DNA of 33,040 nucleotides from an uncultured Rhodospirillales bacterium (GTDB lineage: Bacteria > Pseudomonadota > Alphaproteobacteria > ATCC43930 > CGMCC-115725): positions 1 through 33,040 of the forward strand of contig CAIXXC010000401.1 of the NCBI GenBank assembly GCA_903923205.1. The letters are read 5' to 3'. Of this stretch, positions 7,309 through 26,552 are shown one piece after another; the first letter of the stretch is position 1; each line of letters begins with the position of its first letter. The position numbers and the translations under genes are program-made. The notes beneath the pieces are model-generated. The model was not told where the DNA came from, searched no databases, and saw nothing but the letters and a program-made list of their open reading frames with translations.

Positions 7309-7590
7309 CTTCTCTTTCTCCTTCAACAGCCCGGCTACATGCCCGGTATCGGGCGCGACCGCCCTTCTTAAACATGCTCTTCCTGCCCGAAGATAAACCG
7401 GCACAGCGACCAAGGTCGATGGGAACCAGCGGTATCCTCGCCACCCGGCGTGTTCGGTGAGCGCCGCAAAATCATCACACCTCCGCGCTACCCGTAATTC
7501 CGCTCGCGACAAAGGGTCCGTGACGGTTGCGCGAAACCCCGCAGGCAGTCACAAGTGCGCATTAACACGATGAACGGTGACATCTTGTCG

Positions 7591-10230: not shown

Positions 10231-10285
10231 CGCGCGATATCTCTGACGCTATCTGAGCTGGCAGAGGCTAGTTCCGCAAGTTGGA

Positions 10286-10930
10286 TTAGGGTTCAGGGTT
10301 GTTGTTGGTCTTGGCCTTGAGAGCGTCAAGCAACCCCTGGTAGCCATCGCGGTCAATCACGGCCGAAAATTCCGAGCGCCGGGTCGCAAGCTCGCTGATC
10401 GAGCCCGTCAGGAAGACGTCAACGATCTGCCAAGCCGCCCCAGGGCGTTGGCGGACGAGGTAATTGAGGGTCACGGCCGGGGCGGTTTTCTGCACGAGCC
10501 TGGTCATCACGAGCATGCCGTTGGCAAGCGGCAGCGAGCTATCGGTGACAAACGTCTCGCCACTGAAGCCATCGAAGCGGCGGGCGTAGGTCGAGACCAC
10601 GAATTTGCTGAAGGCTTCGCTGACGGCTGCACGCTGATCGTCAGTCCACTCCGACCAGGACGCGCCGGCGACGATCTTCGTCATCGTCGGCAGATCGAAG
10701 ACCCGCCGAATAACGGGGTCCAGCTTGGCGTAGCGCCCGTCATAGCCAAGCTGATCGGCGTGCTGCATAACATCGATCAGAGCGCCGCAAAGCCCTTCAA
10801 CGACCTGGACAGGCGTCTGCTGATCCGCCTGGACCGATACAGCCGTCTCCCCGGAAGGTTGAGCTGCTCCTGCGGGCGTCGCCATCAACAGCATCAGGGC
10901 GCATATCGCCACAGACGTATTTTTCGCCAT
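10286..10930 (-). CDS. hpnM: HpnM, MlaC/Ttg2D-like periplasmic phospholipid-binding protein
   Basis: A 214-residue exported protein of the toluene-tolerance Ttg2/MlaC family; the hopanoid-cluster version is named HpnM and is thought to carry lipids across the periplasm. It has a signal peptide (MAKNTSVAICALMLLMATPAGA) and then the family core: FDLPTMTKIVAG, ASWSEWTDDQRAAVSEAF and FVVSTYARRFDGFSGE, with AAWQIVDVFLTGSISELATRRSEF near the end. ATG 10930 is used because it begins a clean signal peptide; the frame is open 21 bases further. It lies 85 bases after dxs on the same strand and is probably cotranscribed. Its neighbour on the other side is the convergent hpnN. Confidence 0.9.
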   Translation of the reverse strand: MAKNTSVAICALMLLMATPAGAAQPSGETAVSVQADQQTPVQVVEGLCGALIDVMQHADQLGYDGRYAKLDPVIRRVFDLPTMTKIVAGASWSEWTDDQRAAVSEAFSKFVVSTYARRFDGFSGETFVTDSSLPLANGMLVMTRLVQKTAPAVTLNYLVRQRPGAAWQIVDVFLTGSISELATRRSEFSAVIDRDGYQGLLDALKAKTNNNPEP

Positions 10931-11015
10931 ATTCCCTAGACTTCCCGACACAAGCGTGGCCTCGACGCCCTACACGAAGGTGCAACCGTCAGATTGATTG
11001 AGATCGTTTAGAGCC

Positions 11016-12938
11016 TCACGCCCGCGCTGGCAACTGCGCATCGCTGCGCCCCAAGGCCGCAAGGGCCGTCGCCGTGATGTGGCGCGCCATCAGACCCGCC
11101 TCGTCGTACTGCACATTTGGTGCCTCGTGATCAATAAAGCGATCCGGAAGCACCATCGGCCGAACCTTGAGACCGTTATCAAGCAATCCGGATTCGGCCA
11201 GGAAATGCAGTACCTGGGTGCTGAAACCACCGATCGAGCCTTCCTCAACCGTGATGAGGACTTCATGTTCGCGCGCAAGTCGGGTGATCAGGTCGGTATC
11301 GATCGGCTTGGCGAAGCGCATATCGGCAACAGTTGTGGACAGGCCGAAAGTCGCAAGCTCGCCAGCCGCCTTCAGCGCCTCGCGCAAACGTGTGCCGAGG
11401 CTGAGGATCGCGATCTTGCTGCCCTCGCAGATAACACGGCCCTTGCCGATCTCGAGCGGGACACCGCGCACCGGAATCTCGACGCCTTCGCCATCGCCAC
11501 GCGGATAGCGCACGGCGGACGGGCCATCATCGATGGCGACCTGGGTGGCCACCATATGGGTCAGCTCGGCCTCGTCGGACGGGGCCATGATCACAAAATG
11601 CGGCAGGCACCCAAGGTAGGCCAGATCGAACGAACCGGCATGGGTCGCGCCGTCAGCGCCGACAAGACCAGCGCGATCGATGGCAAACCGCACCGGCAGC
11701 CGCTGGATCGCGACATCATGGACAACCTGGTCATAGCCACGTTGCAGGAAGGTCGAATAGATCGCGCAGAACGGCTTCATGCCCTCGGTCGCAAGACCGG
11801 CGGCAAAGGTCACGGCGTGCTGCTCGGCAATGCCGACGTCAAACGTCCGTGATGGAAACGCCTTGGCGAAGATGTTCACGCCGGTTCCCGACGGCATCGC
11901 CGCCGTGATCGCAACGATCTTGTCGTCGCGCTCGGCTTCCTTGACGAGGCTTTCACCGAAGACGTTCTGATAAGACGGTGCATTGGATTTCGGCTTGGAC
12001 TGAGCGCCGGTCACGACATCGAACTTGGAGACACCGTGATACTTGTCGCCCGCCGCCTCGGCCGGGGCATAGCCGTGACCCTTCTTGGTGACGACATGGA
12101 TCAACACCGGGCCGGCATCCTCAGCATCGCGCACATTCTTCAGAACGGGCAGCAAATGGTCGAGGTTATGGCCATCGATCGGACCGACGTAATAGAAACC
12201 GAGCTCCTCGAACAACGTACCGCCGGTCACAAATCCACGTGCCAGCTCCTCGGCGCGCTTGGCGGCGAGATTCAGGCGCTTGGGCAGGAATTTGGCAAAT
12301 TCCGCAGCCGTGTGGCGCAGGCCGAGATAGGTCTTGGACGAAGCCGCGCGCGACAGTGCCGCGCTGACCGCGCCGACGGGCGGGGCGATCGACATGTCGT
12401 TGTCGTTGAGGATCACGATCAACCGCGTCGCGTGCATCGCGCCGGCGTTGTTCATCGCTTCGTATGCCATGCCCGCGCTCATCGAGCCGTCGCCGATCAC
12501 CGCGATAACATTGTTGCGACGACCCTGCAGATCGCGACCGACCGCCATACCAAGCCCAGCCGAAATTGAGGTCGAGGAATGCGCGGCACCAAAGGGATCG
12601 TAGATGCTTTCGCTGCGCTTGGTGAAGCCGGAAAGTCCGCCTCCCTGGCGCAGGGTACGAATGCGATCACGCCGACCCGTGAGGATCTTGTGCGGATAGG
12701 CCTGGTGACCAACATCCCAGATCAGCCGGTCATCGGGCGTGTTGAAGACGTAGTGGATGGCCGCCGTCAGCTCGACAACACCAAGGCCGGAGCCGAGATG
12801 ACCGCCCGTGATGGAGACAGCCTCAATGGTTTCGCGGCGCAATTCGTCTGCGAACTGACGCAGATCCGATTCCGGCAGTTTCCGGAGATCGGCCGGGATA
12901 TTCACACGGTCCAACAATGGTTTCGGTTGAACGGTCAC
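11016..12938 (-). CDS. dxs: 1-deoxy-D-xylulose-5-phosphate synthase
   Basis: Thiamine-diphosphate enzyme that condenses pyruvate with glyceraldehyde 3-phosphate, the first and flux-setting step of the MEP isoprenoid pathway. The product is about 640 residues. Motifs: [27 protein letters not shown], the ThDP/Mg site [29 protein letters not shown], the catalytic [15 protein letters not shown] and the C-terminal [13 protein letters not shown]. Start chosen at GTG 12938 because AAGGAG lies five bases before it; the frame is open to GTG 12956. It heads a probable dxs-hpnM unit and is divergent from ispH, so the first and last MEP enzymes share one intergenic region. Confidence 0.97.
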
Positions 12939-13320
12939 TTCCACTCCTTGCCACACGATGGCGGCGCCAAGCCGGCGTCCCGGCTCTCAATAATATAAGC
13001 GGGCTAAAGTACAGACTGTCGCCCGCGAGGACAACGCCGTTGACAGGGGTTCCTGCGCGACTGAATCTGTGCTCGCTAGATGTAGTGTTACGGGCGTCAT
13101 TACCTCACAAGATACCCGTAATCGCAAGCATGATGGCGCCAAAAAGTGTTATATTTTTGTCGCGGAGTCGCCATTTAATCGCGATAAATCGGTGCTTGTC
13201 CGGCGCTGAAGGCAGGCCTGCACAGATCCATGGTTGCACCGCACCCGTAAAACTCCGTATGTATAATCCTTGCGAGTCTGTCGGTTTCGGCGGGCACCGG
13301 ACCCTAATCGAGGCACACGA
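12939..13320. promoter_or_regulatory. Divergent dxs/ispH intergenic region with repeated CCCGTAA motif
   Basis: No gene is visible in these 382 bases. For dxs (minus strand) TTGTCC (13034-13029) and TACTTT (13011-13006) are 17 bases apart. For ispH (plus strand) an exact TATAAT is at 13262-13267, 53 bases before the start codon, without a good -35. The heptamer CCCGTAA occurs three times: inverted as TTACGGG at 13088-13094, and direct at 13115-13121 and 13244-13250. The first two form an inverted pair 20 bases apart. A palindromic ATCGCGAT lies near 13178. A regulator binding here is possible but unproven. Confidence 0.35.
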
Positions 13321-14262
13321 ATGAAGGTGATTCTGGCCAAGCCGCGTGGCTTCTGCGCCGGTGTCGAACGGGCGATCGAGATCGTCGAGCGAGCGCTGGA
13401 GAAGTTCGGCGCCCCGGTCTATGTCCGTCACGAGATCGTCCATAACAAGCATGTCGTCGATAGCCTGAAGGCGAAAGGCGCGGTCTTCGTCGACGAACTC
13501 GATGAAATTCCGGCGGGGAGCATCACCGTGTTCAGCGCCCATGGCGTATCGCAGGCGGTTGAGGACGAAGCCGCCACCCGCGACTTGCCCGTGATCGACG
13601 CGACCTGCCCGCTCGTTTCCAAGGTTCATCACGAGGCGCAGCGCTATGCCGACAAGGGCCGCGACGTCATCCTGATTGGCCATGCCGGCCACCCTGAGGT
13701 CGAAGGTACCATGGGCCGGATCGATGGCACGGTGCACCTGATCGCGACGCCCGCCGATGTCGCCACGCTGGATATTTCCGAAGGCACCAAGCTTTCCTAC
13801 GTAACCCAGACCACCTTGTCGGTGGATGACACCAAGAGCGTGATCGATGCGCTCAAGGCGCGGTTCCCCTCGATCATCGGTCCCGACACACGCGACATCT
13901 GCTACGCGACCCAGAACCGTCAGAGCGCCGTGCGCGCCCTTACCGCGCTGGTCGACCTGATTCTCGTCGTGGGTGCCCAGAACAGTTCGAACTCAAACCG
14001 GCTGGCGGAAATCGCCAAGGAAATGGGCATCGCGAGTTACCTGATTGCGGACGCCTCGGCGCTCGATCCGGCCTGGCTTAACGGCGTTCACTCCGTGGGC
14101 GTCACCGCTGGCGCGTCGGCACCGGAGCATCTTGTCGAGGAACTCGTCGAACGCTTACGTGAATTGGGCGCGACCGAGTTTGAAATCCTTCCCGGCGTTG
14201 ATGAAAATGTGCGCTTCAAGATGCCGCCGGAGCTGGCGGACATCGCGGCGATAACTGTCTGA
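13321..14262 (+). CDS. ispH: 4-hydroxy-3-methylbut-2-enyl diphosphate reductase (IspH/LytB)
   Basis: Iron-sulfur enzyme that makes IPP and DMAPP from HMBPP, the last step of the MEP pathway. The 313-residue product has the three cluster-ligating cysteines: C12 (PRGFCAGV), C96 (DATCPLVSK) and C194 ([10 protein letters not shown]). Substrate-binding motifs are also present: [10 protein letters not shown] with the conserved His, [20 protein letters not shown] with the catalytic Glu, and [14 protein letters not shown] 13321 fits the usual MKVILAxPRGFC start. It lies 162 bases before hpnH on the same strand, so the two may be cotranscribed. Confidence 0.97.
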
Positions 14263-14276
14263 CGCCTACCTAATCG

Positions 14277-14310
14277 GCGCCGGCGATCCGATCCCGGCGC
14301 TTGGGTCTTG
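14277..14310 (+). terminator. Weak hairpin after ispH
   Basis: GCGCCGG (14277-14283) and CCGGCGC (14294-14300) form a 7-bp GC stem with a 10-base loop, followed by TTGGGTCTTGATCTTTT. The T-content is loose, so this may be a weak terminator or only an attenuating hairpin between ispH and hpnH. Confidence 0.3.
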
Positions 14311-14424
14311 ATCTTTTGGTGAGTCGGATCACCTGAACAACAGGCCGGAAGCCTGGTTTCGCGACGAGATGAAACCCATCTGTTGCGCGGGCCGCGACCG
14401 GCAGTCCAACAATCGGGGTAGTCT

Positions 14425-15573
14425 GTGGCCATTCCTCTTATTCAGCAGCTTCGCGTCGGCGGCTATTTGCTCAAGCAGACCTTGTCGGGGCGCAAGCGCT
14501 ATCCGCTGGTCCTCATGCTTGAGCCGCTTCTGCGCTGCAATCTCGCCTGCGCCGGTTGTGGCAAGATCGATTATCCGGATCCGATCCTCAATCAGCGCCT
14601 GTCGGTGCAGGAGTGCCTGGACGCGGTGGACGAGTGCGGTGCGCCCGTGGTCGTTATCGCCGGTGGTGAGCCGCTCCTGCACAAGGAGATCGACAAGATC
14701 GTCGAAGGCATCACCGCCCGCAAGAAATTCGCGATCGTCTGTACCAATGCGCTGCTGCTTGAAAAGAAGATGCATCTCTTCAAGCCGAGCCCGTATTTCA
14801 ACTGGTCGATCCATCTTGACGGCGACCGCGAAGATCATGATCGCGCGGTTTGCCAGGACGGCGTCTATGATCGCGCCATCGCGGCGATCAAAAAGGCCCG
14901 CGACATGGGCTTCCGCATCAATATCAATTGTACGCTTTATGACGGCGCGCAGCCCGAGAAAGTCGCCAATTTCTTTGATATGGTGAACCACGAACTCGGC
15001 GCGACCGTGACCCTGTCGCCCGGTTATGCCTATGAGCGCGCCCCGGACCAGGAGCATTTCCTCAACCGCGAGCGCACCAAGACGCTGTTCCGCGACATCT
15101 TCCGGCTGGGCAAGGGTCGTAAGTGGAGCTTCAGTCAGTCGACCGTCTTCCTCGACTTCCTGACCGGCAACCAGACCTTCCATTGCACGCCCTGGGGCAA
15201 TCCGACCAAGACTGTGTTCGGCTGGCAGCGTCCCTGCTATCTCCTTGGCGAAGGCTATGCGCCGACGTTCAAGGCGCTGATGGAAGAGACCGATTGGGAC
15301 GCCTACGGTACCGGCAATTATGAAAAATGCGCCAATTGCATGGTCCATAGCGGCTATGAGGCGTCAGCCGTGGCCGATATCGTCAAGCATCCGTTCAAGG
15401 CCCTGGCGATCGAGCTGCGCGGCCCGCGCACCGAAGGCCCGATGGCGCCGGAGATCCCGCTCGATAAGCAGCGCCCGGCGGAATACAACTATTCGAAGCA
15501 TGTCGACGAGGCACTAGAGCGGATTGGCGCTTCCAAGCTGGAGCAGGCCGAAGCCGAGGCTGCCGCCGAGTAG
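14425..15573 (+). CDS. hpnH: Adenosyl-hopene transferase HpnH (radical SAM)
   Basis: HpnH adds a 5'-deoxyadenosyl radical to diploptene and produces adenosylhopane, the entry to C35 hopanoids. The product has 382 residues and begins at GTG 14425 after a GGGG ribosome site. The radical SAM cysteines are C38, C42 and C45 (CNLACAGC, the CX3CX2C form). Other family marks are IAGGEPLLHKEID for SAM binding, NWSIHLDGDREDHD, TLSPGYAYERAPDQEHFL and the C-terminal NYEKCANCMVHSGYE cysteine pair. Its last 60 bases overlap, on the opposite strand, the end of hpnG, which encodes the next enzyme. Confidence 0.96.
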   Translation: MAIPLIQQLRVGGYLLKQTLSGRKRYPLVLMLEPLLRCNLACAGCGKIDYPDPILNQRLSVQECLDAVDECGAPVVVIAGGEPLLHKEIDKIVEGITARKKFAIVCTNALLLEKKMHLFKPSPYFNWSIHLDGDREDHDRAVCQDGVYDRAIAAIKKARDMGFRININCTLYDGAQPEKVANFFDMVNHELGATVTLSPGYAYERAPDQEHFLNRERTKTLFRDIFRLGKGRKWSFSQSTVFLDFLTGNQTFHCTPWGNPTKTVFGWQRPCYLLGEGYAPTFKALMEETDWDAYGTGNYEKCANCMVHSGYEASAVADIVKHPFKALAIELRGPRTEGPMAPEIPLDKQRPAEYNYSKHVDEALERIGASKLEQAEAEAAAE

Positions 15574-16233
15574 ATCACAACGCTTCAATGTTCGATGGGC
15601 GGCACCAGCCGCCCGTCCGAGCCGGATCAGCGCACCCAACTGGCCAGGATTGCGGGCCAGCGAGCCGAGCACAGCCAAAAGGTCTGTAGCCCCCGCCGGG
15701 GTCACGCCGACCAGCGCAGCGGGTGGCAAGACTTGATCGGCTTCGTCCGCCACCGCGCGGATCACCAGCCAGGGCAAACCTGCCCGCGCCGCCGCATCGG
15801 CTATCTCATGACTTTCCATATCGACCGCCACGGCGCCCGCCCGCTGTGCCAGCGCGTGCTTCGCCGCGACACTGGCGATCGCCACGTCGGAGGCGACAAG
15901 CGCCCCCGTGGCAGGCCGAAGTTCACCCAGCAGATCGAGCGCCGCACAATGCCAAGCCGGATCGACGCTTAAGCGCGATCCATCCGGTGTCACAATCTCG
16001 CTTGGCAGCAGGAGATCGCCGGCTGCGAGATAATCGGCGAGCCCCCCGGCCAAACCGTAACTGATCAGATGCGTACAACCCGCCGCGACAAGATGATCGG
16101 CGCCCGCCTTCGCCAGTTCGGGTCGCGCGCCCGAAAGGGCAACGACGAGGGACGAGTCGCGTGACGCTGTCACCAGGGTTTCCTGTTCCGAGCGCAACCC
16201 GGCCAGAATCCCCAGGCGAAACGCTGCCGTCAT
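15514..16233 (-). CDS. hpnG: HpnG, hopanoid-associated nucleosidase/phosphorylase
   Basis: HpnG removes adenine from adenosylhopane, the HpnH product, giving the ribosyl-hopane precursor of bacteriohopanepolyols. The 239-residue protein has the PNP/UDP-phosphorylase fold: LGILAGLRSEQETL at the N-terminus, ISYGLAGGLADYLAAGDLLLP in the middle, and AVDMESHEIADAAARAGLPW, the usual DMES segment at the ribose site. It starts 12 bases after the shc stop, so it closes the hpnCDE-shc-hpnG run. It ends 60 bases inside hpnH on the opposite strand. Confidence 0.9.
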   Translation of the reverse strand: MTAAFRLGILAGLRSEQETLVTASRDSSLVVALSGARPELAKAGADHLVAAGCTHLISYGLAGGLADYLAAGDLLLPSEIVTPDGSRLSVDPAWHCAALDLLGELRPATGALVASDVAIASVAAKHALAQRAGAVAVDMESHEIADAAARAGLPWLVIRAVADEADQVLPPAALVGVTPAGATDLLAVLGSLARNPGQLGALIRLGRAAGAAHRTLKRCDLLGGSLGFGLLQLGSANPL

Positions 16234-16245
16234 CGCCAGACCCCG

Positions 16246-18228
16246 TTACATCCCGTGAAGGACAAGCTCGGAATTGCCGGCGATAAGGTTGCGATAGCGC
16301 GCCAGCGCCCAGAGCGGGAAATACTTCCGGTAACCGTGATAGCGCAGATAGAAGACGCGCGGAAAACCAACCGCCGAATAAGCGTCCTCGCGCCACAACG
16401 CGGTATCGTCATTGCGATGCTCCAGCAGATAGGCGATCCCATGCGCCACCACCGGATGGTTCACCTTACCCGCCGCCATCAGCCCAAGCAGCGCCCAGGC
16501 GGTCTGCGACGCGGTCGAGACCTTGGCGATGCCTTCGCGGCCGGGATAATAGCTCAAACCATCTTCGCCCCAGCCGCCGTCCGGCAGTTGCTTGGAGATC
16601 AGCCAATCGACGGCGCGCTGGATGCCGGGGGAGTTCAGGTCCTCGCCCGCCGCATTGAGGGCGCAGAGCGCCGACCAGGTGCCATAGATGTAATTGGTGC
16701 CCCAGCGCCCGAACCAGGAGCCATCGGCCTCCTGTTCGGCCCAGAGATAAGCGACGCCGCGATCGATCACGGGATGACCGCGCTTCATGCCCGTTTGCGC
16801 CAGCATGCTGATGCAGCGGGCGCTGACATCGACCGTCGGCGGGTCGAGCAGGGCGCCATGATCGGCGAACGGGATATAGTTGAGATAGTAATGGGTGTTG
16901 TCGGCGTCGAACGCGCCCCAGCCGCCATTATCGCTCTGCATCCCGATCACCCATTCCAGGGCGCGGTCGATGCTCTCGCGATGCTTGGGGTCCCCGGCGC
17001 GGTCCAACGCCATCACGACGACAGCGGTGTCATCGACATCGGGATAATAATCATTGGCGTATTGGAACGCCCAGCCGCCCGGTCTCACATTGGGGCGACG
17101 AAACGCCCAGTCGCCGACGACATCGAGGATCTGACGCGGCACCAACCAGTCGGACGCAGCCGCGATGGCCTGCTTCACCCGCGACTGTTTGGTCGGGTCG
17201 CGCGCCAGGCTGTCGGCAACTTCAAGCATCGCCTGTTCAGCGAGGCACGTATCCCAGACCGGCGAGACGCAGGGCTGCACATAGGAATCGCCCTCATCAT
17301 CCTGAATCACCAGCCGACGCAGCGATTCCTTCGCGATCACCAGATTCGGATCATCCTTGGGATAGCCGAGCGCCACCATCGCCATGACCGAATTCGCCAT
17401 GGCGGGAAAGATACCGCCCAGGCCATCCAGGCCGTTGAGTCGCTCAAGCGTGAATTCCATCGCCTTCTTGATGGACAGCGCGCGCAGGCTTTGCGGAAAA
17501 TACGGCTCGGCCTTGCGCAGCACGACATCGATCAGGCGGAACGTGGTGCCCCAGAAATTCGGCACCGTCGCGTGCATGTAGCGCTTTTCCTGATCCGCCG
17601 GGATCACGAAAAGCTCCTCGATCGTCACGCCCTCGGGATTGATCGCGCGCGGCTTCAGCGACATCAGCACGACGAGCGGAGCGATCACCGTCCGCGACCA
17701 ATAGGCGATCTTGGAGATATGGAACGGGAACCATTTCGGCAGGATCATGATCTCGACAGGCATCACCGGCACGCCGCGCCAGGGGATGAAGCCGAACAGG
17801 GCGAGGGCCGTGCGGGTGAACACATTGGCACGGGCAGCGCCACCCGCGCTCAGGATCACGCCGCGAGCGCGCCGCATATGGGGGGCGTTGATATCATCGC
17901 CCGCCAGTTTGAGCGCGAGATAGGCTTTGACCGTCGCGCTCAGATCGAAAGCACCGTCATGGAACAGCGGCCAGCCGCCGTCCTGTCCCTGGATCTTGCG
18001 CAGATAGGGCACTATCCTGGCCTGCAGATCCTCGTCAATCTCGTCGAGGTAATGCATCAGCATGATGTATTCAGCCGGGATCGTCGCATCGGCCTCAAGG
18101 GCAAAGACCCAATGGCCGTCCTGCTGCTGCCGCTCGATCAGGGCCTCTGATGTGGTCTCGATCGCCTCGTCGAGCGCTTCGATGGTCGGCTCGTCGTACG
18201 AGAATTCGGGAAACAGTGGAAAATTCAT
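16246..18228 (-). CDS. shc: Squalene-hopene cyclase
   Basis: Membrane-associated class II terpene cyclase that converts squalene to hopene and hopanol, also called HpnF. The 660-residue product has the catalytic acid motif DVDD at residues 397-400 and many QW repeats, for example QQDGHWVFALEAD, KIQGQDGGWPLF, MQSDNGGWGAFDAD, EQEADGSWFGRWG and KQLPDGGWGEDG. The active-site-lining PNFWGT and FPxALYLRYHxY-like end (FPRVFYLRYHGYRKYFP) are present. The C-terminus is complete. It follows hpnE after 211 bases and precedes hpnG by 12. Confidence 0.97.
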   Translation of the reverse strand: MNFPLFPEFSYDEPTIEALDEAIETTSEALIERQQQDGHWVFALEADATIPAEYIMLMHYLDEIDEDLQARIVPYLRKIQGQDGGWPLFHDGAFDLSATVKAYLALKLAGDDINAPHMRRARGVILSAGGAARANVFTRTALALFGFIPWRGVPVMPVEIMILPKWFPFHISKIAYWSRTVIAPLVVLMSLKPRAINPEGVTIEELFVIPADQEKRYMHATVPNFWGTTFRLIDVVLRKAEPYFPQSLRALSIKKAMEFTLERLNGLDGLGGIFPAMANSVMAMVALGYPKDDPNLVIAKESLRRLVIQDDEGDSYVQPCVSPVWDTCLAEQAMLEVADSLARDPTKQSRVKQAIAAASDWLVPRQILDVVGDWAFRRPNVRPGGWAFQYANDYYPDVDDTAVVVMALDRAGDPKHRESIDRALEWVIGMQSDNGGWGAFDADNTHYYLNYIPFADHGALLDPPTVDVSARCISMLAQTGMKRGHPVIDRGVAYLWAEQEADGSWFGRWGTNYIYGTWSALCALNAAGEDLNSPGIQRAVDWLISKQLPDGGWGEDGLSYYPGREGIAKVSTASQTAWALLGLMAAGKVNHPVVAHGIAYLLEHRNDDTALWREDAYSAVGFPRVFYLRYHGYRKYFPLWALARYRNLIAGNSELVLHGM

Positions 18229-18321
18229 GATGGGGTCTTCACGTCCTGATGTTCTCGGGCGTCAGTTTCTCGGAGCGAGCACGCGACGCGTCATCCAACA
18301 AAAGCGGCGAGAGGTGTCGAG

Positions 18322-18344
18322 GCTTCATAATGGAGTCATGAAGC
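18322..18344. promoter_or_regulatory. Inverted repeat and candidate promoter upstream of shc
   Basis: In the 211-base gap before shc, GCTTCAT (18322-18328) and ATGAAGC (18338-18344) form an exact 7-bp inverted repeat around nine bases. On the minus strand TTGTGT and TATGAA, 18 bases apart, overlap it and could serve as -35 and -10. This suggests that shc-hpnG may have its own regulated promoter inside the larger hpn operon. The evidence is sequence symmetry only. Confidence 0.3.
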
Positions 18345-18439
18345 TTCACACAAGGCATTGCGATGTGGCCGCCACTCTAGATGCAAACGGAATACATGGG
18401 CGTGTTATTCCGGCAACCCTTAGCCCCGCGAACCTGGGC

Positions 18440-19693
18440 TCAACGACGCAACAATGCAGTTGCGGCCGCCTCGCCGTTTCGAAGCGTGCCTTCGATCGTC
18501 ACCGGCAAGCCGTTATCGATGTAATCGCCGGCCAGCACCAGATTGGACCAGCGCGTCTTCGTTGGCGGCCGTTGCCTGACTTGGGCCGGGGTCTGGGCAA
18601 ATGTCGCCCGTTTTTCTTTGATAATGCGCCAGGGCGGCAGGATATCGCGGTCAAGCCCCAGTGCCCGTGCGACCTCACCCCAGATCAGTGCCGCCAAGGT
18701 CTCGGCATCGTCGTCGAGAAAGCGATCAGCGGCACTGATCGTGACCGAGGCCAGTTCGCCATGGCGGAAGATCCACTCCGTCGCCCCACCCATGACACCC
18801 AGGATCGAGACCTCGGGTACGACGACCCCCAGGCGAAAATGGGCATTCAGGATGCTGCGAAATTCGGTCGGAACAGTGATCCCCGGCACCAGGGTCGCGG
18901 CGACCGGCGGCGGCACCGCGACCACCACCTGATCGCGAGGCCCAAGGATGATCGTCTCACCGGCAACATCCAGGGCGACCGCACCGGCATCGTCATATCG
19001 GATCGCCCGCACCCGCGCACCGAAGCGAATATCGGCGCCGCGCTGGCGCAGCCAGTCGAGCGCGGGATAGACAAAGCTCTCGCTCAACCCCGACGCCGCG
19101 ATCAACGGTCGGCAATAATCCGCACCCCGTCCGAAGGTTTCCAGCAAAACCGGCCATAGCAGCTGCGCTGCCGCCTCATCGGGCTGGGTGTTGAGCACCG
19201 AGACGGCGAGCGGCCCCCAGAAACGGCGGTACAGCAGCGGCTTGCCGGCAAATAACCCGGCGACCGTGGCCTGGGGTCCAGCGAAGGCAAGCTTGGCAGC
19301 CGGCGCATAATCACCAAGTCGACTGCCGAGAACCCGCCGCCGTGGATCAAGCAGCCAGTAGGGCAGGAGACCGCGATTGGGTCGCACGGTCCAACGCTCA
19401 CCCGTCGCGAGATCGAAGAAGGGAAAGAATGCCTCACTCGGCCCGGCCAATGTGTCTCCGGCGCCGATGGTGGCGAGATAGGCAAGCGCGCGGTTATTGC
19501 CACTCAGCAGCAGGTGATTGCCGTTATCGATTCGGCACCCCAGTACGTCGTCGACATAGGACCGGCAGCGCCCGCCGGCCTGTGCACCGGCCTCGTACAG
19601 CGTGACGTCACGGCCAGCTTCGGCAAGCCGTACCGCAGCGCTCAGGCCCCCAAGGCCGGCGCCGATGATGTGGACCCGCCCCAAGCCGCTCAT
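18440..19693 (-). CDS. hpnE: HpnE, hydroxysqualene dehydroxylase (FAD-dependent)
   Basis: HpnE reduces hydroxysqualene to squalene, the last step of the HpnC/D/E route that replaces squalene synthase. The 417-residue flavoprotein opens with VHIIGAGLGGLSAAVRLAEAG, a GxGxxG dinucleotide fold, and continues with AGGRCRS, IDNGNHLLLSGN and LNTQPDEAAAQLLWPVL. It ends with NLVLAGDYIDNGLPVTIEG, the flavin-binding end of the amine-oxidase family. ATG 19693 is chosen because it overlaps the hpnD stop (ATGA) and places the FAD motif at the N-terminus; the open frame upstream belongs to hpnD in another frame. Confidence 0.94.
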   Translation of the reverse strand: MSGLGRVHIIGAGLGGLSAAVRLAEAGRDVTLYEAGAQAGGRCRSYVDDVLGCRIDNGNHLLLSGNNRALAYLATIGAGDTLAGPSEAFFPFFDLATGERWTVRPNRGLLPYWLLDPRRRVLGSRLGDYAPAAKLAFAGPQATVAGLFAGKPLLYRRFWGPLAVSVLNTQPDEAAAQLLWPVLLETFGRGADYCRPLIAASGLSESFVYPALDWLRQRGADIRFGARVRAIRYDDAGAVALDVAGETIILGPRDQVVVAVPPPVAATLVPGITVPTEFRSILNAHFRLGVVVPEVSILGVMGGATEWIFRHGELASVTISAADRFLDDDAETLAALIWGEVARALGLDRDILPPWRIIKEKRATFAQTPAQVRQRPPTKTRWSNLVLAGDYIDNGLPVTIEGTLRNGEAAATALLRR

Positions 19694-20571
19694 CGCGTCA
19701 GATAGCCTGCCTTCAGGGCGAGCCAGATTTTTGTCAGTTTGGGGATTTTGAGTTCCGCCCGCGTCGGCGACCAGCCCCGGACAAGCACGCGCTTCAAGGT
19801 CTCGTGGTAAACCGCGCTCATCATCACCGCCGGTCGCATGATGCGACGGTCGCAATCGGCGATCGCCTTGTCGGCCTGGACAAAGCGACGCGCCGCCTCC
19901 TGCGCCAACTCCCGGCAGACACCATCGATCCGGGGATCATTGATCACCGTCATTGGATCGGTCGATTGGATGCCGTGTCGGATGAGGAGGTCGCGGGGCA
20001 GATAGAGACGCCCGCGCTCGGCATCCTCGTCGATATCGCGGAGTATATTGGTCAGTTGCAGCGCCTGGCCGAGGTGATCGGCGACCGCATCGGCCCGTGG
20101 CTTCCAATCGCCAAAGGCGCGAACCGAAAGACGGCCCACGGCACTGGCGACGCGATCACAGTAAAGCCTTAGCTCATCAAGGCTCGGCGCGCGAATATCC
20201 TGCTCGGCATCCATCGCCATGCCGTCGATTACGGCCAGGAAATCGGCCTTTTGCATGTGAAAATGGGCAATCGACCCGGCGAGCGCACGACCGACAGGCT
20301 TGGTCGGCGTCCGACCGTCGTAGAGGCGGTCGATCTCTTCGCGCCAAAGGCTGAGTTCGCGGAATTTCTGCTCCTGCGGCGCGGGCTCGTCGGCGATATC
20401 GTCGACCTCGCGACAAAAGGCGTAGATCGCGAACATGGCGTCGCGCTTGGCCTGCGGCAGCAGCCGCATCGCCAGATAGAACGAGCTTCCGCTCGCACCC
20501 ACTGTCGCGGCAACGGCGGCGGAATCATCGATTGTATTCGGTATCGTGGGAAGCGCTTCGGTCTGGGTCAT
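19690..20571 (-). CDS. hpnD: HpnD, presqualene diphosphate synthase
   Basis: HpnD joins two farnesyl diphosphates into presqualene diphosphate. The 293-residue protein is a trans-isoprenyl diphosphate synthase with both aspartate-rich motifs, CREVDDIADE and LRDIDEDAERGRLYLP. It also has SSFYLAMRLLPQAKRDAMFAIYAFCRE near the N-terminus, typical of the squalene/phytoene synthase family, and RVASAVGRLSVRAFG. ATG 20571 shares one base with the hpnC stop (TGATG) and the gene overlaps hpnE by four bases, so the three are translationally coupled. Confidence 0.93.
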   Translation of the reverse strand: MTQTEALPTIPNTIDDSAAVAATVGASGSSFYLAMRLLPQAKRDAMFAIYAFCREVDDIADEPAPQEQKFRELSLWREEIDRLYDGRTPTKPVGRALAGSIAHFHMQKADFLAVIDGMAMDAEQDIRAPSLDELRLYCDRVASAVGRLSVRAFGDWKPRADAVADHLGQALQLTNILRDIDEDAERGRLYLPRDLLIRHGIQSTDPMTVINDPRIDGVCRELAQEAARRFVQADKAIADCDRRIMRPAVMMSAVYHETLKRVLVRGWSPTRAELKIPKLTKIWLALKAGYLTR

Positions 20572-21470
20572 CAGCGTTGCGCAACCAGCGTGCCGGTCGT
20601 GGTTTTCAGGGTCAGGCGGCGGCGCAGCCAGCCATGACCGACGGCGAATCCGGCCCATGCGCCCGCCACAGGCTTACTCATCGCAACACGGGTCGCAATC
20701 GGATCCTCGCGCTTCAGCCGCTCGGTCAGGCGGACCGCCAGAGTATGGATGACATGACATTCGAGCGAGATACGGGGATCCCTGATCTGGACGACCAGAT
20801 CGGCGCTGGTGCTCAGCAAGCCTTCGAGCGGCGCAATCACCCGGTCCATGACCCGGCGCAGGCCAAGCGTGACGTGATGACCGCCCAGTTCCTCGATCTT
20901 CACACCTTCCTCGGCCATGTAATCCTCCGGCAGGTAGACGCGATCGAGCTTGCGGTAATCCTCGGCGAAGTCCTGGAGATGATTGATCACCTGAAGCGCG
21001 TTGCACAGCGCATCGGCTCCCCGGCGGCAGACCTCGCCCTCGCCATGGAGATCGAGCAGGTGGCGACCGATCGGCGATGCCGACAGGAAACAATAGGCGA
21101 GCAGATCGTCCCAGTCGCGATAGCGCAGCTTCAGCGCATCCTGGGTGAACGCGGTCAGCAGGTCGAGCCCATGGCGCAAGGTCACGCCGGTCTCCTCCAG
21201 CGAATCGCGGAATACCAGCGCGTTCGAGGATTCCGCGCGTGCCTGCTCTCGCGGGGTTTCGCCGCGAATGATCGCCGCCATGCCTTCGAGCCGGACGACC
21301 TTGTCTTGCGGCAGCAGATCGCCATCATCGGCTATATCGTCGGCGGCGCGGGCAAAGCCATACAAGGCGTGGACATGGCGACGCAGGTCTGGACGGATGA
21401 GCCAGGATCCGACCGGAAAATTCTCGTCGCCCGCCCCCTTTCCAGAGGGCTTTTCAAGCGTTCCGGCCAT
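20571..21470 (-). CDS. hpnC: HpnC, hydroxysqualene synthase
   Basis: HpnC converts presqualene diphosphate to hydroxysqualene. The 299-residue protein has the HpnC start ENFPVGSWLIRPDLRRHVHALYGFARAADDIADD with the first aspartate-rich motif, and NHLQDFAEDYRKLDRVYLPEDYM with the second. AYCFLSASPIGRHLLDLHGE lies between them. ATG 21470 is used; the frame is open to 21527 but the extra residues do not look like the family. It is first in the hpnCDE run, 117 bases after the COG4705-type gene on the same strand. Confidence 0.93.
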   Translation of the reverse strand: MAGTLEKPSGKGAGDENFPVGSWLIRPDLRRHVHALYGFARAADDIADDGDLLPQDKVVRLEGMAAIIRGETPREQARAESSNALVFRDSLEETGVTLRHGLDLLTAFTQDALKLRYRDWDDLLAYCFLSASPIGRHLLDLHGEGEVCRRGADALCNALQVINHLQDFAEDYRKLDRVYLPEDYMAEEGVKIEELGGHHVTLGLRRVMDRVIAPLEGLLSTSADLVVQIRDPRISLECHVIHTLAVRLTERLKREDPIATRVAMSKPVAGAWAGFAVGHGWLRRRLTLKTTTGTLVAQR

Positions 21471-21587
21471 GATTCTCCGTCTATTCCCGAGGCTTGGATT
21501 GGAAACCCAGTCTTGCCCTAAGCACACCCGTCAAGGCAAGCGTTTCGCGGCTGACCACAAAGGGTCAAAACTGAGGACGGGGGGATT

Positions 21588-22447: not shown

Positions 22448-22462
22448 GTTCTTGATTTGTTC
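22448..22462 (+). promoter_or_regulatory. Perfect LexA box GTTC-N7-GTTC
   Basis: GTTC (22448-22451), TTGATTT, GTTC (22459-22462) is an exact alphaproteobacterial SOS operator. It stands 25 bases before the ATG of the radical SAM gene, in the 140-base divergent gap with the COG4705-type gene. The spacer resembles that of the recA site in this window (TTGTTTT). Confidence 0.8.
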
Positions 22463-22486
22463 ACAATCTCCTGCCATCATCCCGCC

Positions 22487-23572
22487 ATGGATGAGATCGG
22501 GCAGCGGCACCAGGTCAAGGGGCGGGGCGCGCTCAGTAATGCCTCGGGCCGATTCGAGGTTTTCGACCGGGTGATGATCGATGACGGCTGGGGCAGCGCC
22601 GATGCCGAGCCCTTGCCGCTGCGCACCGTGCTGACCGAAGATAAAAGCCGGACGATCATTGCCCGCAATGATTCCCCCGATGTTCCCTTCGATCGGTCGA
22701 TCAACCCCTATCGCGGCTGCGAGCATGGCTGCGTCTACTGCTTTGCCCGGCCATCCCATGCGTATCTGGGGCTATCGCCTGGACTGGATTTCGAGAGCCA
22801 TCTGTTCTTCAAGCCGCGCGCGGCCGAATTGCTCGCGGCAGAGCTGCGCGCCGTGCGCTACCGCTGCCAGCCGATGGCGCTCGGCACCAATACCGATCCC
22901 TATCAGCCCCTGGAGCGTGACAAGAAGATCATGCGATCGATCCTGGAAGTCTTGCGCGACTTCTCGCACCCGGTATCGATCGTGACCAAATCCGCTTTGG
23001 TGTGTCGCGATATTGATATTCTGGCACCGATGGCGGCACAAAGGCTCGCCCTTGTCGGGATCTCGATCACGACGCTCGATCGCCACCTTGCCCGCCGACT
23101 GGAGCCCCGCGCGGCAACGCCGACGCGCCGACTGGAGGCCATTCGCCAATTATCCGAGGCCGGTATTCCTGTCGTCGTGATGGTGGCACCGATCATTCCC
23201 GGCCTGACCGACCAGGAGATCGACGCGATCCTTGAGGCGGCGCGTGACGCCGGGGCGAGCGCGGCGGCGCGTGTGATGCTGCGCTTGCCACGCGAACTGG
23301 GCGGCCTTTTTACCGAATGGCTTGAAACCCACGCGTCGGGACGGGCACGGCACGTGCTGTCCCTGCTGCGTGATATCCGTGATGGCGAACTCAACCAATC
23401 CGCCTGGGGTGAGCGCATGACCGGTTCGGGCCCCTATGCTGAAGCAATCGCCCGGCGCTTTCAACTCGCCGCCAGGCGTCTGGGGTTCGAGACCGACCGT
23501 AAATTCACCGCGCTCGACGTCACCCGGTTCAAGCCGCCACCCCAATCCGGCGATCAGCTCAGCCTGCTATAA
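22487..23572 (+). CDS. PA0069/Rv2578c-family radical SAM protein (SplB-related)
   Basis: A 361-residue radical SAM enzyme with the cluster motif CEHGCVYC (C78, C82, C85), preceded by PFDRSINPYRG and followed by FARPSHAYLGLSPGLDFE. Later marks are ALGTNTDPYQPLERDKKIMRS, VTKSALVCRDIDIL and APIIPGLTDQEID. This layout defines the PA0069/Rv2578c family, related to spore photoproduct lyase (SplB); no substrate is established as far as I know. ATG 22487 is chosen because the LexA box ends 24 bases upstream; the open frame extends to 22358 but would include the operator. The operator implies induction by DNA damage, and a role in handling damaged DNA is plausible but inferred. Confidence 0.88.
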   Translation: MDEIGQRHQVKGRGALSNASGRFEVFDRVMIDDGWGSADAEPLPLRTVLTEDKSRTIIARNDSPDVPFDRSINPYRGCEHGCVYCFARPSHAYLGLSPGLDFESHLFFKPRAAELLAAELRAVRYRCQPMALGTNTDPYQPLERDKKIMRSILEVLRDFSHPVSIVTKSALVCRDIDILAPMAAQRLALVGISITTLDRHLARRLEPRAATPTRRLEAIRQLSEAGIPVVVMVAPIIPGLTDQEIDAILEAARDAGASAAARVMLRLPRELGGLFTEWLETHASGRARHVLSLLRDIRDGELNQSAWGERMTGSGPYAEAIARRFQLAARRLGFETDRKFTALDVTRFKPPPQSGDQLSLL

Positions 23573-23813: not shown

Positions 23814-26552
23814 ATGACCCCGCCCTTGCCCTCCACGAGCGTTATCCTCAGCCTGCCGAGTCTGGTCCTTGGCGTGCGTGAGGGCGCCTGGATCAGTACC
23901 GATGGCGAGATGGAGACCTTGACCTTGCCGCGGCTCGTGCCCCGGCTGCGCGACACCCCGCCGTTGCTCGTCCATCGCGCGGCCATGGCGCGGCGTTTGG
24001 GCATGCCCGATCTGGCCGGGTATGATCTTCTGGAACTCTGGGCCTTCGCCCTGCCGGCGCGCTTTTGCCTGCCGACCCCGCGCGGGCTCGCCGCAGCGCT
24101 CGGCATCGCGGTGCCGGAGGACCTCGAAGACCAGGCGATGCGGCTGCCGGAAATATCCTCGCGCCTGATCAACCTTGTTGCCGCCTCGGCGAGCGACGAT
24201 ATCCGCGACCTTGTGGCCACGATGAGCCGAGGCGGCTGGCTCTGGGGACCCGTATTGCTCCAGGCAATGGCGGGGTCGGGCGAGGCAAAACCGCGACGTT
24301 CCGGCGCCGGCCTCGACGTCTGGAGCAAATTGCCGGAATGGGCGGAAGCAGGCCCGGCATCGCCGCCCACCGATTTCCCGATCGATCCGGTCGCGGCACG
24401 CCAGCGCCTTGCCAGCCTGCTCGATGTCGCCCGCAGCGCGGCGGAGGAAAGACCGCAGCAGGCGGATTACGCCTCTGCCGCAAGCGCCGCGTTTGACCCG
24501 CGCGAGGCTCCCGGCTCCCCGATTTCGGTGCTGGCCGAGGCTGGGACCGGCGTCGGCAAAACGCTCGGCTACCTCGCGCCGGCCAGCCTCTGGGCGGAGC
24601 GCAATGGCGGTCCGGTCTGGATATCGACCTATACCCGCAACCTGCAAACCCAGATCGAGACCGAGCTTGACAGGCTCTATCCCGATCCGGTGGAAAAGGC
24701 CGAGCGTGTGGTCGTGCGCAAGGGCCGAGAGAACTATCTGTGCCTGCTGAATTATGAAGAGGCGGCGCGCGCGGTGACATCACGCCCGGTCGATGCGATC
24801 AGCCTTGGCCTGATGGCGCGCTGGGTCGGCGCGACGCGTGACGGCGCCCTTGTCGGCGGCGATTTCCCCGGCTGGCTCAGCGATATCCTTGGCCGCCAGC
24901 AGACGCTTGGTCTGGCCGACCGGCGCGGCGAATGTGTTTATTCGGCGTGCCCGCATTACCAGAAATGTTTCATCGAACGATCCGTCCGCCGCGCCCGCCG
25001 AGCCGCAATCGTAATCGCCAATCACGCCTTGGTCATGATCCAGCTCGGTCTTGGCGGCCCGGATGATGGCTTTCTGCCGACACGGTATATTTTCGACGAA
25101 GGCCACCATGTCTTCGACGCCGCCGATGGCGCTTTCTCCTCGCTGTTGTCGGGGCGTGAGGCGGGCGAGTTGCGGCGCTGGATCCTGGGTGCCGATGGCG
25201 GATCGAGCCGGGCGCGCGGCCTGCGTCGCCGCATCGAGGATCTGATCGCCGATGATGATTCCGCGCTTGAGCTGCTGCAGGAGGCGCTGGTCGCGGCGGC
25301 GGCCTTGCCGGGCGAAGGCTGGCTGCGGCGGGTCTCGCAGGACGAACCCCGCCAGGCGATTGAAGCGTTCCTGAGCGTGGCGCGGCGTCAGGTCCTGACA
25401 CGCGTGGCCGATTCCGAGGCAGGCTATGACCTTGAGGCCGGCAAGGAAATGCCGATCGCGGGGTTGATTGAGGCCGCCAATGCCGCCGAGCGTGCGCTCG
25501 CCGCGATCGAGGCACCCCTGCTCGCCCTGAAGAAGAAGCTGGAAAAGCGTCTGGAGGAGACCCCCGAAGATCTCGACACTCCGACCCGTCTGCGTCTGGA
25601 TGCCATGAGCCGGGGGCTGGAGCGCCGGGCGACCCAGCATCTTGGCGCGTGGCGCAAGATGCTGCATGAGCTGGCACATGCCACGCCCGACGGCATGGTT
25701 GACTGGTTCTCGCTGAGCCGCAGCGAGGGGCGGGAGAGCGATGTCGGCCTGCATCGCCATTGGGTCGATCCGACCATCCCTTTCGCGATCTCCATCGCCG
25801 GCCCGGCCCATGGCCTATTGCTGACATCGGCGACCCTGACCGACGGCACCGGAGAGCCCGAGGCCGACTGGCTTGCCGCCGAAACCCGCACCGGGACACG
25901 GCATTTCCTTGCCCCCGCGATCCGCGCACATGTCCAGTCGCCGTTCGATTACGCCGCGCAAACCCGAAGTTTTGTCGTGACAGATGTCCGCCGCGAAGAC
26001 CTGGATCAGGTCGCGTCGGCCTATCGCGCCTTGTTGCTGGCAGCGGGCGGCGGCGGCCTTGGCCTGTTTACGGCGATTTCCCGGTTGCGTGCCGTTCATG
26101 AACGCATCGCCGGGCCGCTCGACGCCGCCGGGCTGATGCTGCTGGCACAGCATGTCGATGGGATCGATATCGGCACCCTCATCGATATCTTTCGCGCCGA
26201 GGAAAACGCCTGCCTGCTGGGGACCGACGCCGTTCGCGACGGTGTCGATGTTCCCGGGCGCAGCCTGCGCCTGATCGTTTTTGATCGGGTGCCGTGGCCC
26301 CGTCCGGATATCCTGCATCGTGCCCGCAAGTCGGCCTTCGGCGGTCGCGTCTACGATGACATGCTGACGCGGCTGAAGCTGCGCCAGGCCTTCGGGCGAT
26401 TAATCCGCCGCGCCGATGATCGCGGCGTCTTCGTCCTGCTGGACTCGATGATGCCCTCGCGCCTCAACGGCGCCTTCCCCGAGGGCGCAACCCCGCGTCG
26501 CGTCGGTCTGCGCGAGGCGATTGAGGAGACCCGGCTCTTTCTGGCATCCTGA
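23814..26552 (+). CDS. DinG/XPD-type iron-sulfur ATP-dependent DNA helicase
   Basis: A superfamily 2 5'-3' helicase of 912 residues from ATG 23814; the open frame runs further upstream but through the terminator. Walker A is AEAGTGVGKT (241-250), the DEAH-like box is DEGH (428-431), and four cysteines that can hold a 4Fe-4S cluster are C310, C374, C379 and C385. The C-terminal helicase domain shows LLTSATLTDG, LGLFTAISRLRAVHE, GTDAVRDGVDVPG and LRQAFGRLIRR (motif VI). The first 235 residues precede the core; a stretch at about 50-100 (LLELWAFALPARF, then a LAAALGI helix) resembles a degenerate DnaQ-like exonuclease, which is an inference. DinG helicases unwind R-loops, D-loops and G-quadruplexes. 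No LexA box is seen before it. Confidence 0.9.
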   Translation: MTPPLPSTSVILSLPSLVLGVREGAWISTDGEMETLTLPRLVPRLRDTPPLLVHRAAMARRLGMPDLAGYDLLELWAFALPARFCLPTPRGLAAALGIAVPEDLEDQAMRLPEISSRLINLVAASASDDIRDLVATMSRGGWLWGPVLLQAMAGSGEAKPRRSGAGLDVWSKLPEWAEAGPASPPTDFPIDPVAARQRLASLLDVARSAAEERPQQADYASAASAAFDPREAPGSPISVLAEAGTGVGKTLGYLAPASLWAERNGGPVWISTYTRNLQTQIETELDRLYPDPVEKAERVVVRKGRENYLCLLNYEEAARAVTSRPVDAISLGLMARWVGATRDGALVGGDFPGWLSDILGRQQTLGLADRRGECVYSACPHYQKCFIERSVRRARRAAIVIANHALVMIQLGLGGPDDGFLPTRYIFDEGHHVFDAADGAFSSLLSGREAGELRRWILGADGGSSRARGLRRRIEDLIADDDSALELLQEALVAAAALPGEGWLRRVSQDEPRQAIEAFLSVARRQVLTRVADSEAGYDLEAGKEMPIAGLIEAANAAERALAAIEAPLLALKKKLEKRLEETPEDLDTPTRLRLDAMSRGLERRATQHLGAWRKMLHELAHATPDGMVDWFSLSRSEGRESDVGLHRHWVDPTIPFAISIAGPAHGLLLTSATLTDGTGEPEADWLAAETRTGTRHFLAPAIRAHVQSPFDYAAQTRSFVVTDVRREDLDQVASAYRALLLAAGGGGLGLFTAISRLRAVHERIAGPLDAAGLMLLAQHVDGIDIGTLIDIFRAEENACLLGTDAVRDGVDVPGRSLRLIVFDRVPWPRPDILHRARKSAFGGRVYDDMLTRLKLRQAFGRLIRRADDRGVFVLLDSMMPSRLNGAFPEGATPRRVGLREAIEETRLFLAS

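Follow-up and report, generated by a model that had tools for sequence, protein, structure and literature searches.

The locus and its LexA box

The window, that is, the whole 33,040-nt stretch of DNA analyzed here, comes from an uncultured Rhodospirillales bacterium and contains a radical SAM gene with a LexA box in its promoter, as well as recA, which lies 20 kb away. The features relevant to their regulation and function are as follows.

1706–1720, + strand: LexA-like box ATTCTTGTTTTGTTC before recA, one mismatch; top matrix match in the window, 27.9 bits
1795–2862, + strand: recA, the SOS inducer; TIGR02012, 568.7 bits
22448–22462, + strand: LexA box GTTC-TTGATTT-GTTC, kept in 101 of 115 alphaproteobacterial homologues; scored at 26.9 bits by a matrix whose training set left it out
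22452–22457, + strand: putative −35 element TTGATT within the LexA box; TTG plus three A/T at box positions 4–9 across 156 promoters
22475–22480, + strand: putative −10 element CATCAT, 17 nt past the −35 and 6 nt before the ATG
22487–23572, + strand: PA0069-family radical SAM protein, 361 aa; NF033668, 508.1 bits; PF04055; nearest solved fold, spore photoproduct lyase
22718–22741, + strand: codons of C78-x3-C82-x2-C85, the [4Fe-4S] motif, plus Y84; invariant in 115 of 115 sequences
22886–22897, + strand: codons of T134-N135-T136-D137, placed opposite lyase C140-T141-S142-D143 by motif alignment

A hopanoid cluster occupies positions 7555–21527 (hpnN, dxs, hpnG, squalene-hopene cyclase, hpnD and hpnC), and the gene for a DinG/YoaA-related helicase of 912 aa comes right after the radical SAM gene (23814–26552). 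In other bacteria DinG is under SOS control; no LexA box was found before the helicase gene in the window.

The box at 22448–22462, GTTCTTGATTTGTTC, lies in the promoter of the PA0069-family gene and ends 24 nt before the ATG at 22487. The first-pass annotation had reported a perfect GTTC-N7-GTTC 25 bases upstream of the start; the perfect box stands, and the distance is corrected by one nucleotide. This is the sole perfect match in the window, where 0.78 would be expected by chance, and the bare pattern occurs 118 times in the whole genome versus 128 times for a reversed control pattern. Since these counts equal chance at both scales, we rejected them as evidence for a LexA box; what raises the site above chance is its conservation in homologues together with its score in an extended matrix. 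The identical 15-base sequence occurs once more in the genome, before a 356-aa ORF (L278, G000:C465:2106–2120).

The matrix, 19 positions long, was trained on homologous radical SAM promoters with the window's own site excluded. It ranked the recA site first in the window and the radical SAM site second, and no site in 30 simulated windows scored above 14.8 bits. For the radical SAM site the score is partly circular, as the training promoters are homologous to it; recovery of the recA site is not circular, and because the matrix finds that site independently we identify the motif as a LexA box. A weaker box-like site is present on the opposite strand at 1732–1746, just downstream of the recA box. 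Elsewhere in the genome, the lexA gene (contig C299) is the single match to the LexA DNA-binding domain model and has GTTCTAGTTTAGTTC just upstream. An imuA-like gene also carries a box; it was named by eye, and a 90-residue piece of its product gave no family match.

When 156 promoters were aligned on the box, TTGWTT fell within it, box position +28 was A in 65% and position +32 was T in 54%, and in 85 promoters the ATG that came first in frame past the box lay at +38 to +40. TTGATT may thus act as the −35 element, and the simplest reading of the layout would be a sigma-70-type promoter with LexA covering its −35. Because the box overlaps the −35 and the −10 ends 6 nt before the ATG, the radical SAM mRNA is probably leaderless.

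Conservation of the box and its change with LexA type

Perfect GTTC-N7-GTTC sites lie upstream of 28 of 30 homologues from the bacterium's own order and of 73 of 85 in a class-wide sample, giving 101 of 115 alphaproteobacterial loci, compared with a mean of 0.6 when the upstream regions were shuffled in blocks of two. A homologue scan of this kind had been proposed as a possible refutation of the first-pass reading, and its outcome does not refute it. GTTC pairs at other spacings (3 to 12) occurred just 0–3 times each, and perfect CTGT-N8-ACAG was absent from all 115 loci. The runner-up tetramers in the class set, TGTT (58) and TTCT (48), stem mostly from the same site read in a shifted register. 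In a second, overlapping sample consisting mostly of alphaproteobacterial named records, the perfect box was present in 62 of 75. Fourteen of the 115 loci keep the gene and lack the perfect box; a one-mismatch site is present in 8 of them, where chance alone would give such a site in about 14 of 115. The PA0069-family gene itself scored above cut-off in 200 of 385 sampled alphaproteobacterial genomes.

Membership of the alphaproteobacterial LexA regulon was judged on two properties, and both were observed: the box lies in the promoter and is conserved among orthologues, and the genome contains lexA and has a box of this type at lexA or recA. A box arising by chance, with no LexA control of the gene here, would fit the 0.78 bare matches expected per window and the lack of a genome-wide excess, but is opposed by conservation in 101 of 115 homologues, by the preferred spacing to the ATG and by matching box types in other groups. 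We regard a chance match as having a negligible probability, and on sequence grounds the gene is almost certainly under LexA regulation.

Outside the Alphaproteobacteria, the type of box changes. CTGT-N8-ACAG precedes the gene in 24 of 38 non-alpha Pseudomonadota loci, and the alpha-type box in none of the 38. All 24 belong to the 28 genomes with an E. coli-like LexA, defined as a TIGR00498 score of at least 210 bits; the 10 genomes with a divergent or absent LexA have no such box. Box presence is associated with LexA score class across these 38 genomes (Fisher p = 2e-6, with a threshold picked after seeing the data). Among four actinobacterial Rv2578c-type loci, a perfect GAAC-N4-GTTC lies near the start in two (Streptomyces and Nonomuraea), Arthrobacter has this site with one mismatch, and Tsukamurella has none. 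The box type therefore follows the LexA type of the host, and the earlier proposal that the same enzyme group is controlled through different boxes in distant taxa is borne out.

SOS control of the gene appears common and not universal, because no box was recognised before the gene in some lineages, among them most members of the non-alpha group f193. In one genome with a divergent LexA (G641), the radical SAM gene is preceded by TTAGCAATAATACTAA, which resembles TTAGTAGTAATACTAC / TTAGTAGTAATACTACTAA at lexA. A motif common to the two genes was found in this one of the six genomes compared from divergent-LexA lineages; other members of the G641 family are without it, and we rejected a shared motif as a general rule in such lineages.

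Several relatives and neighbors turned up in the same surveys. In a record titled Mycobacterium sp. KBS0706 (L160), both the gene (61% identity) and its LexA box are of the alphaproteobacterial type, so the record is probably misnamed. Close relatives on MAG contigs labelled Marinimicrobia (L154, 63% identity, with an alpha-type box) and Acidobacteria (L189, 60%) reflect either binning errors or gene transfer. Phages yielded just distant matches to radical SAM proteins, all of them spanning less than 80% of the window protein. In 35 alphaproteobacterial loci, a gene resembling rnhB lies near the radical SAM gene and shares its orientation, and in several related genomes rnhB (RNase HII) follows it directly. 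The window's genome has them at separate places, with a box-like GTTCCTGTTTTGTTC some 200 nt upstream of rnhB (L280, G000:C356, C356:17608–17622); in the order's other genomes with rnhB apart from the gene, such a site is missing, with one exception. On these grounds rnhB was rejected as a partner.

SOS control of radical SAM genes named splB has already been published for several phyla. In 2012, Sanchez-Alberola and colleagues described splB genes preceded by LexA sites in alpha- and beta-proteobacteria, read the product as a photolyase and proposed SOS-controlled photoreactivation (PMC3323433). A radical SAM protein belongs to the Gram-positive core SOS regulon and is also found in that of Balneolaeota (PMC7739468), and SplB (COG1533) belongs to the SOS regulon of Bacteroidetes (PMC8565304). 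In Streptomyces venezuelae, the radical SAM gene vnz_31145 is a LexA ChIP-seq target and is induced about 20-fold by mitomycin C in RNA-seq (PMC9380542). Our literature search found no paper joining Rv2578c or PA0069 to LexA. The lyase family TIGR03886 (lyase_spl_fam) was considered as the alphaproteobacterial splB and ruled out, with 0 of 192 alphaproteobacterial genomes above cut-off; for this reason, the alpha splB of the 2012 study is very probably the PA0069 family.

Family, fold and active-site residues

The protein is a full-length member of the PA0069 family (NF033668, 508.1 bits against a cut-off of 360, covering model positions 1–348 of 348) and falls below the cut-off of the Rv2578c family (NF038135, 228.3 bits against 430). 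Its original description as PA0069/Rv2578c-type is accordingly narrowed: it belongs to the former and is related to the latter.

A structure model built from 51 homologues (mean pLDDT 81, pTM 0.83, first 36 residues poorly predicted) most resembles spore photoproduct lyase (4rh0/4fhc), with Z 18.4 over 262–263 residues at 3.6 Å. NifB (Z 15.2) and lipoyl synthase (15.1) come next, and viperin scores within Z 14–15. Sequence comparisons are more distant: identity to the lyase over the fold is 12–14%, neither phmmer with the protein nor the family profile reached lyase entries among PDB sequences, and a profile–profile comparison with a small lyase-type alignment gave a probability of 58 with a poor middle section. 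Because that comparison is weak, residue equivalences were taken from an alignment of shared motifs (CxxxCxYC, xxTD/TSD, VTK, SI and EP).

Across 115 sequences, C78, C82, C85, Y84 and K168 are invariant, and the predicted fold with its CxxxCxxC cluster motif is that of a lyase. The cysteine at C140/C141 of the lyase is needed to finish the spore photoproduct lyase reaction. Position 134, which the motif alignment places there, is occupied by T, S, A, V or M, never by cysteine, and is followed by invariant N135, T136 and D137; nor do the 115 sequences hold any other conserved cysteine outside the cluster, the best columns being C127 (68/115) and C329 (54/115). The second active-site tyrosine of the lyase (Y98/Y99) is likewise not kept, as position 86 in its place is F in 85 sequences, including the window protein, and Y in 30. 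The relationship to spore photoproduct lyase claimed by the first-pass annotation thus holds at the level of the predicted fold and fails at the active site.

These residues bear directly on whether the gene encodes an ordinary, SOS-controlled spore photoproduct lyase that reverses 5-thyminyl-5,6-dihydrothymine, the assumption made in 2012 when the alpha and beta gene splB was called a photolyase. Among solved folds the lyase is clearly the closest (Z 18.4 versus 15.2), and Y84 and K168 match lyase Y96 and K174 in the motif alignment. The absence of a conserved non-cluster cysteine, the usual F in place of Y98, the low identity and the failure of sequence searches to reach lyases all argue the other way. 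Because the cysteine that finishes the lyase reaction is missing, the exact lyase reaction is not the one we propose, and we consider it quite improbable both that the enzyme performs it and that the gene is such a lyase. The published photolyase label is doubtful because the hydrogen-donor cysteine is not conserved.

A proposed light-independent response to DNA damage

The explanation we favor, and consider likely as a whole, combines a LexA-repressed promoter with light-independent radical chemistry on DNA damage that differs from the lyase reaction. LexA bound to GTTC-N7-GTTC, overlapping the −35 hexamer, would keep RNA polymerase off the promoter. DNA damage would lead RecA to trigger LexA self-cleavage, and loss of LexA would allow synthesis of the radical SAM mRNA. 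In the enzyme, C78, C82 and C85 would hold the [4Fe-4S] cluster with which S-adenosylmethionine is cleaved to a 5′-deoxyadenosyl radical, and the chemistry would take place in the predicted lyase-like fold. Most likely, this radical would be used, independently of light, on DNA in which a base or base pair is damaged.

SOS membership by itself is no proof that a protein acts on DNA, and many LexA targets are no repair enzymes (PMC9380542). The enzyme might instead modify a nucleotide by viperin-like chemistry, act on RNA or protein, or merely be a passenger in the regulon, and viperin, lipoyl synthase and NifB do share its fold at Z 14–15. This alternative is weakened by the first rank of the lyase-type fold and by the persistence of regulation through LexA box-type changes in several classes, which suggests a job tied to damage; we judge it unlikely, though less so than the lyase reaction. 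Returning to chemistry on damaged DNA, we lean towards the view that the enzyme acts on a DNA lesion, as suggested by SOS control that is kept across changes of box type. We raise more tentatively the possibility that PA0069/Rv2578c-type proteins form a separate and very widely distributed class of SOS-controlled radical SAM enzymes that directly reverse or remodel a DNA lesion in the dark with non-lyase termination chemistry.

Because the gene is widespread, occurring in more than half of the sampled alphaproteobacterial genomes, and because its SOS control survives LexA box-type changes, it comes close to a core damage-response gene. Regulon papers have labelled it a photolyase or spore photoproduct lyase homologue, and the family is missing the residue that defines that reaction. 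Four points are new here: how widely the box is conserved, how its type changes along with that of LexA, how the promoter is laid out, and the lack of the lyase's cysteine; together these make the photolyase label doubtful and the question of the substrate testable.

Among known systems, the LexA-regulated splB of PMC3323433 resembles the window gene in its regulation, the classes in which it is found and its two LexA box types. It was read as a spore photoproduct lyase or photoreactivation enzyme, whereas the residues described here argue against that chemistry. Spore photoproduct lyase of Geobacillus (PDB 4fhc) is alike in predicted fold, cluster motif and the equivalents of Y96 and K174; unlike it, the window's family has no C140 equivalent, mostly has F in place of Y98 and shares about 14% identity. 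The Rv2578c family of Actinomycetota has a common core with the window protein, including the GTN(T/V)D and CxxxCxYCFAR motifs, and its loci likewise carry LexA boxes, of the Gram-positive type, in two of four cases; it is a separate family, with the window protein scoring below its cut-off (228 versus 430). From the PA0069 family (NF033668), which it matches over the full length, the window protein shows no difference.
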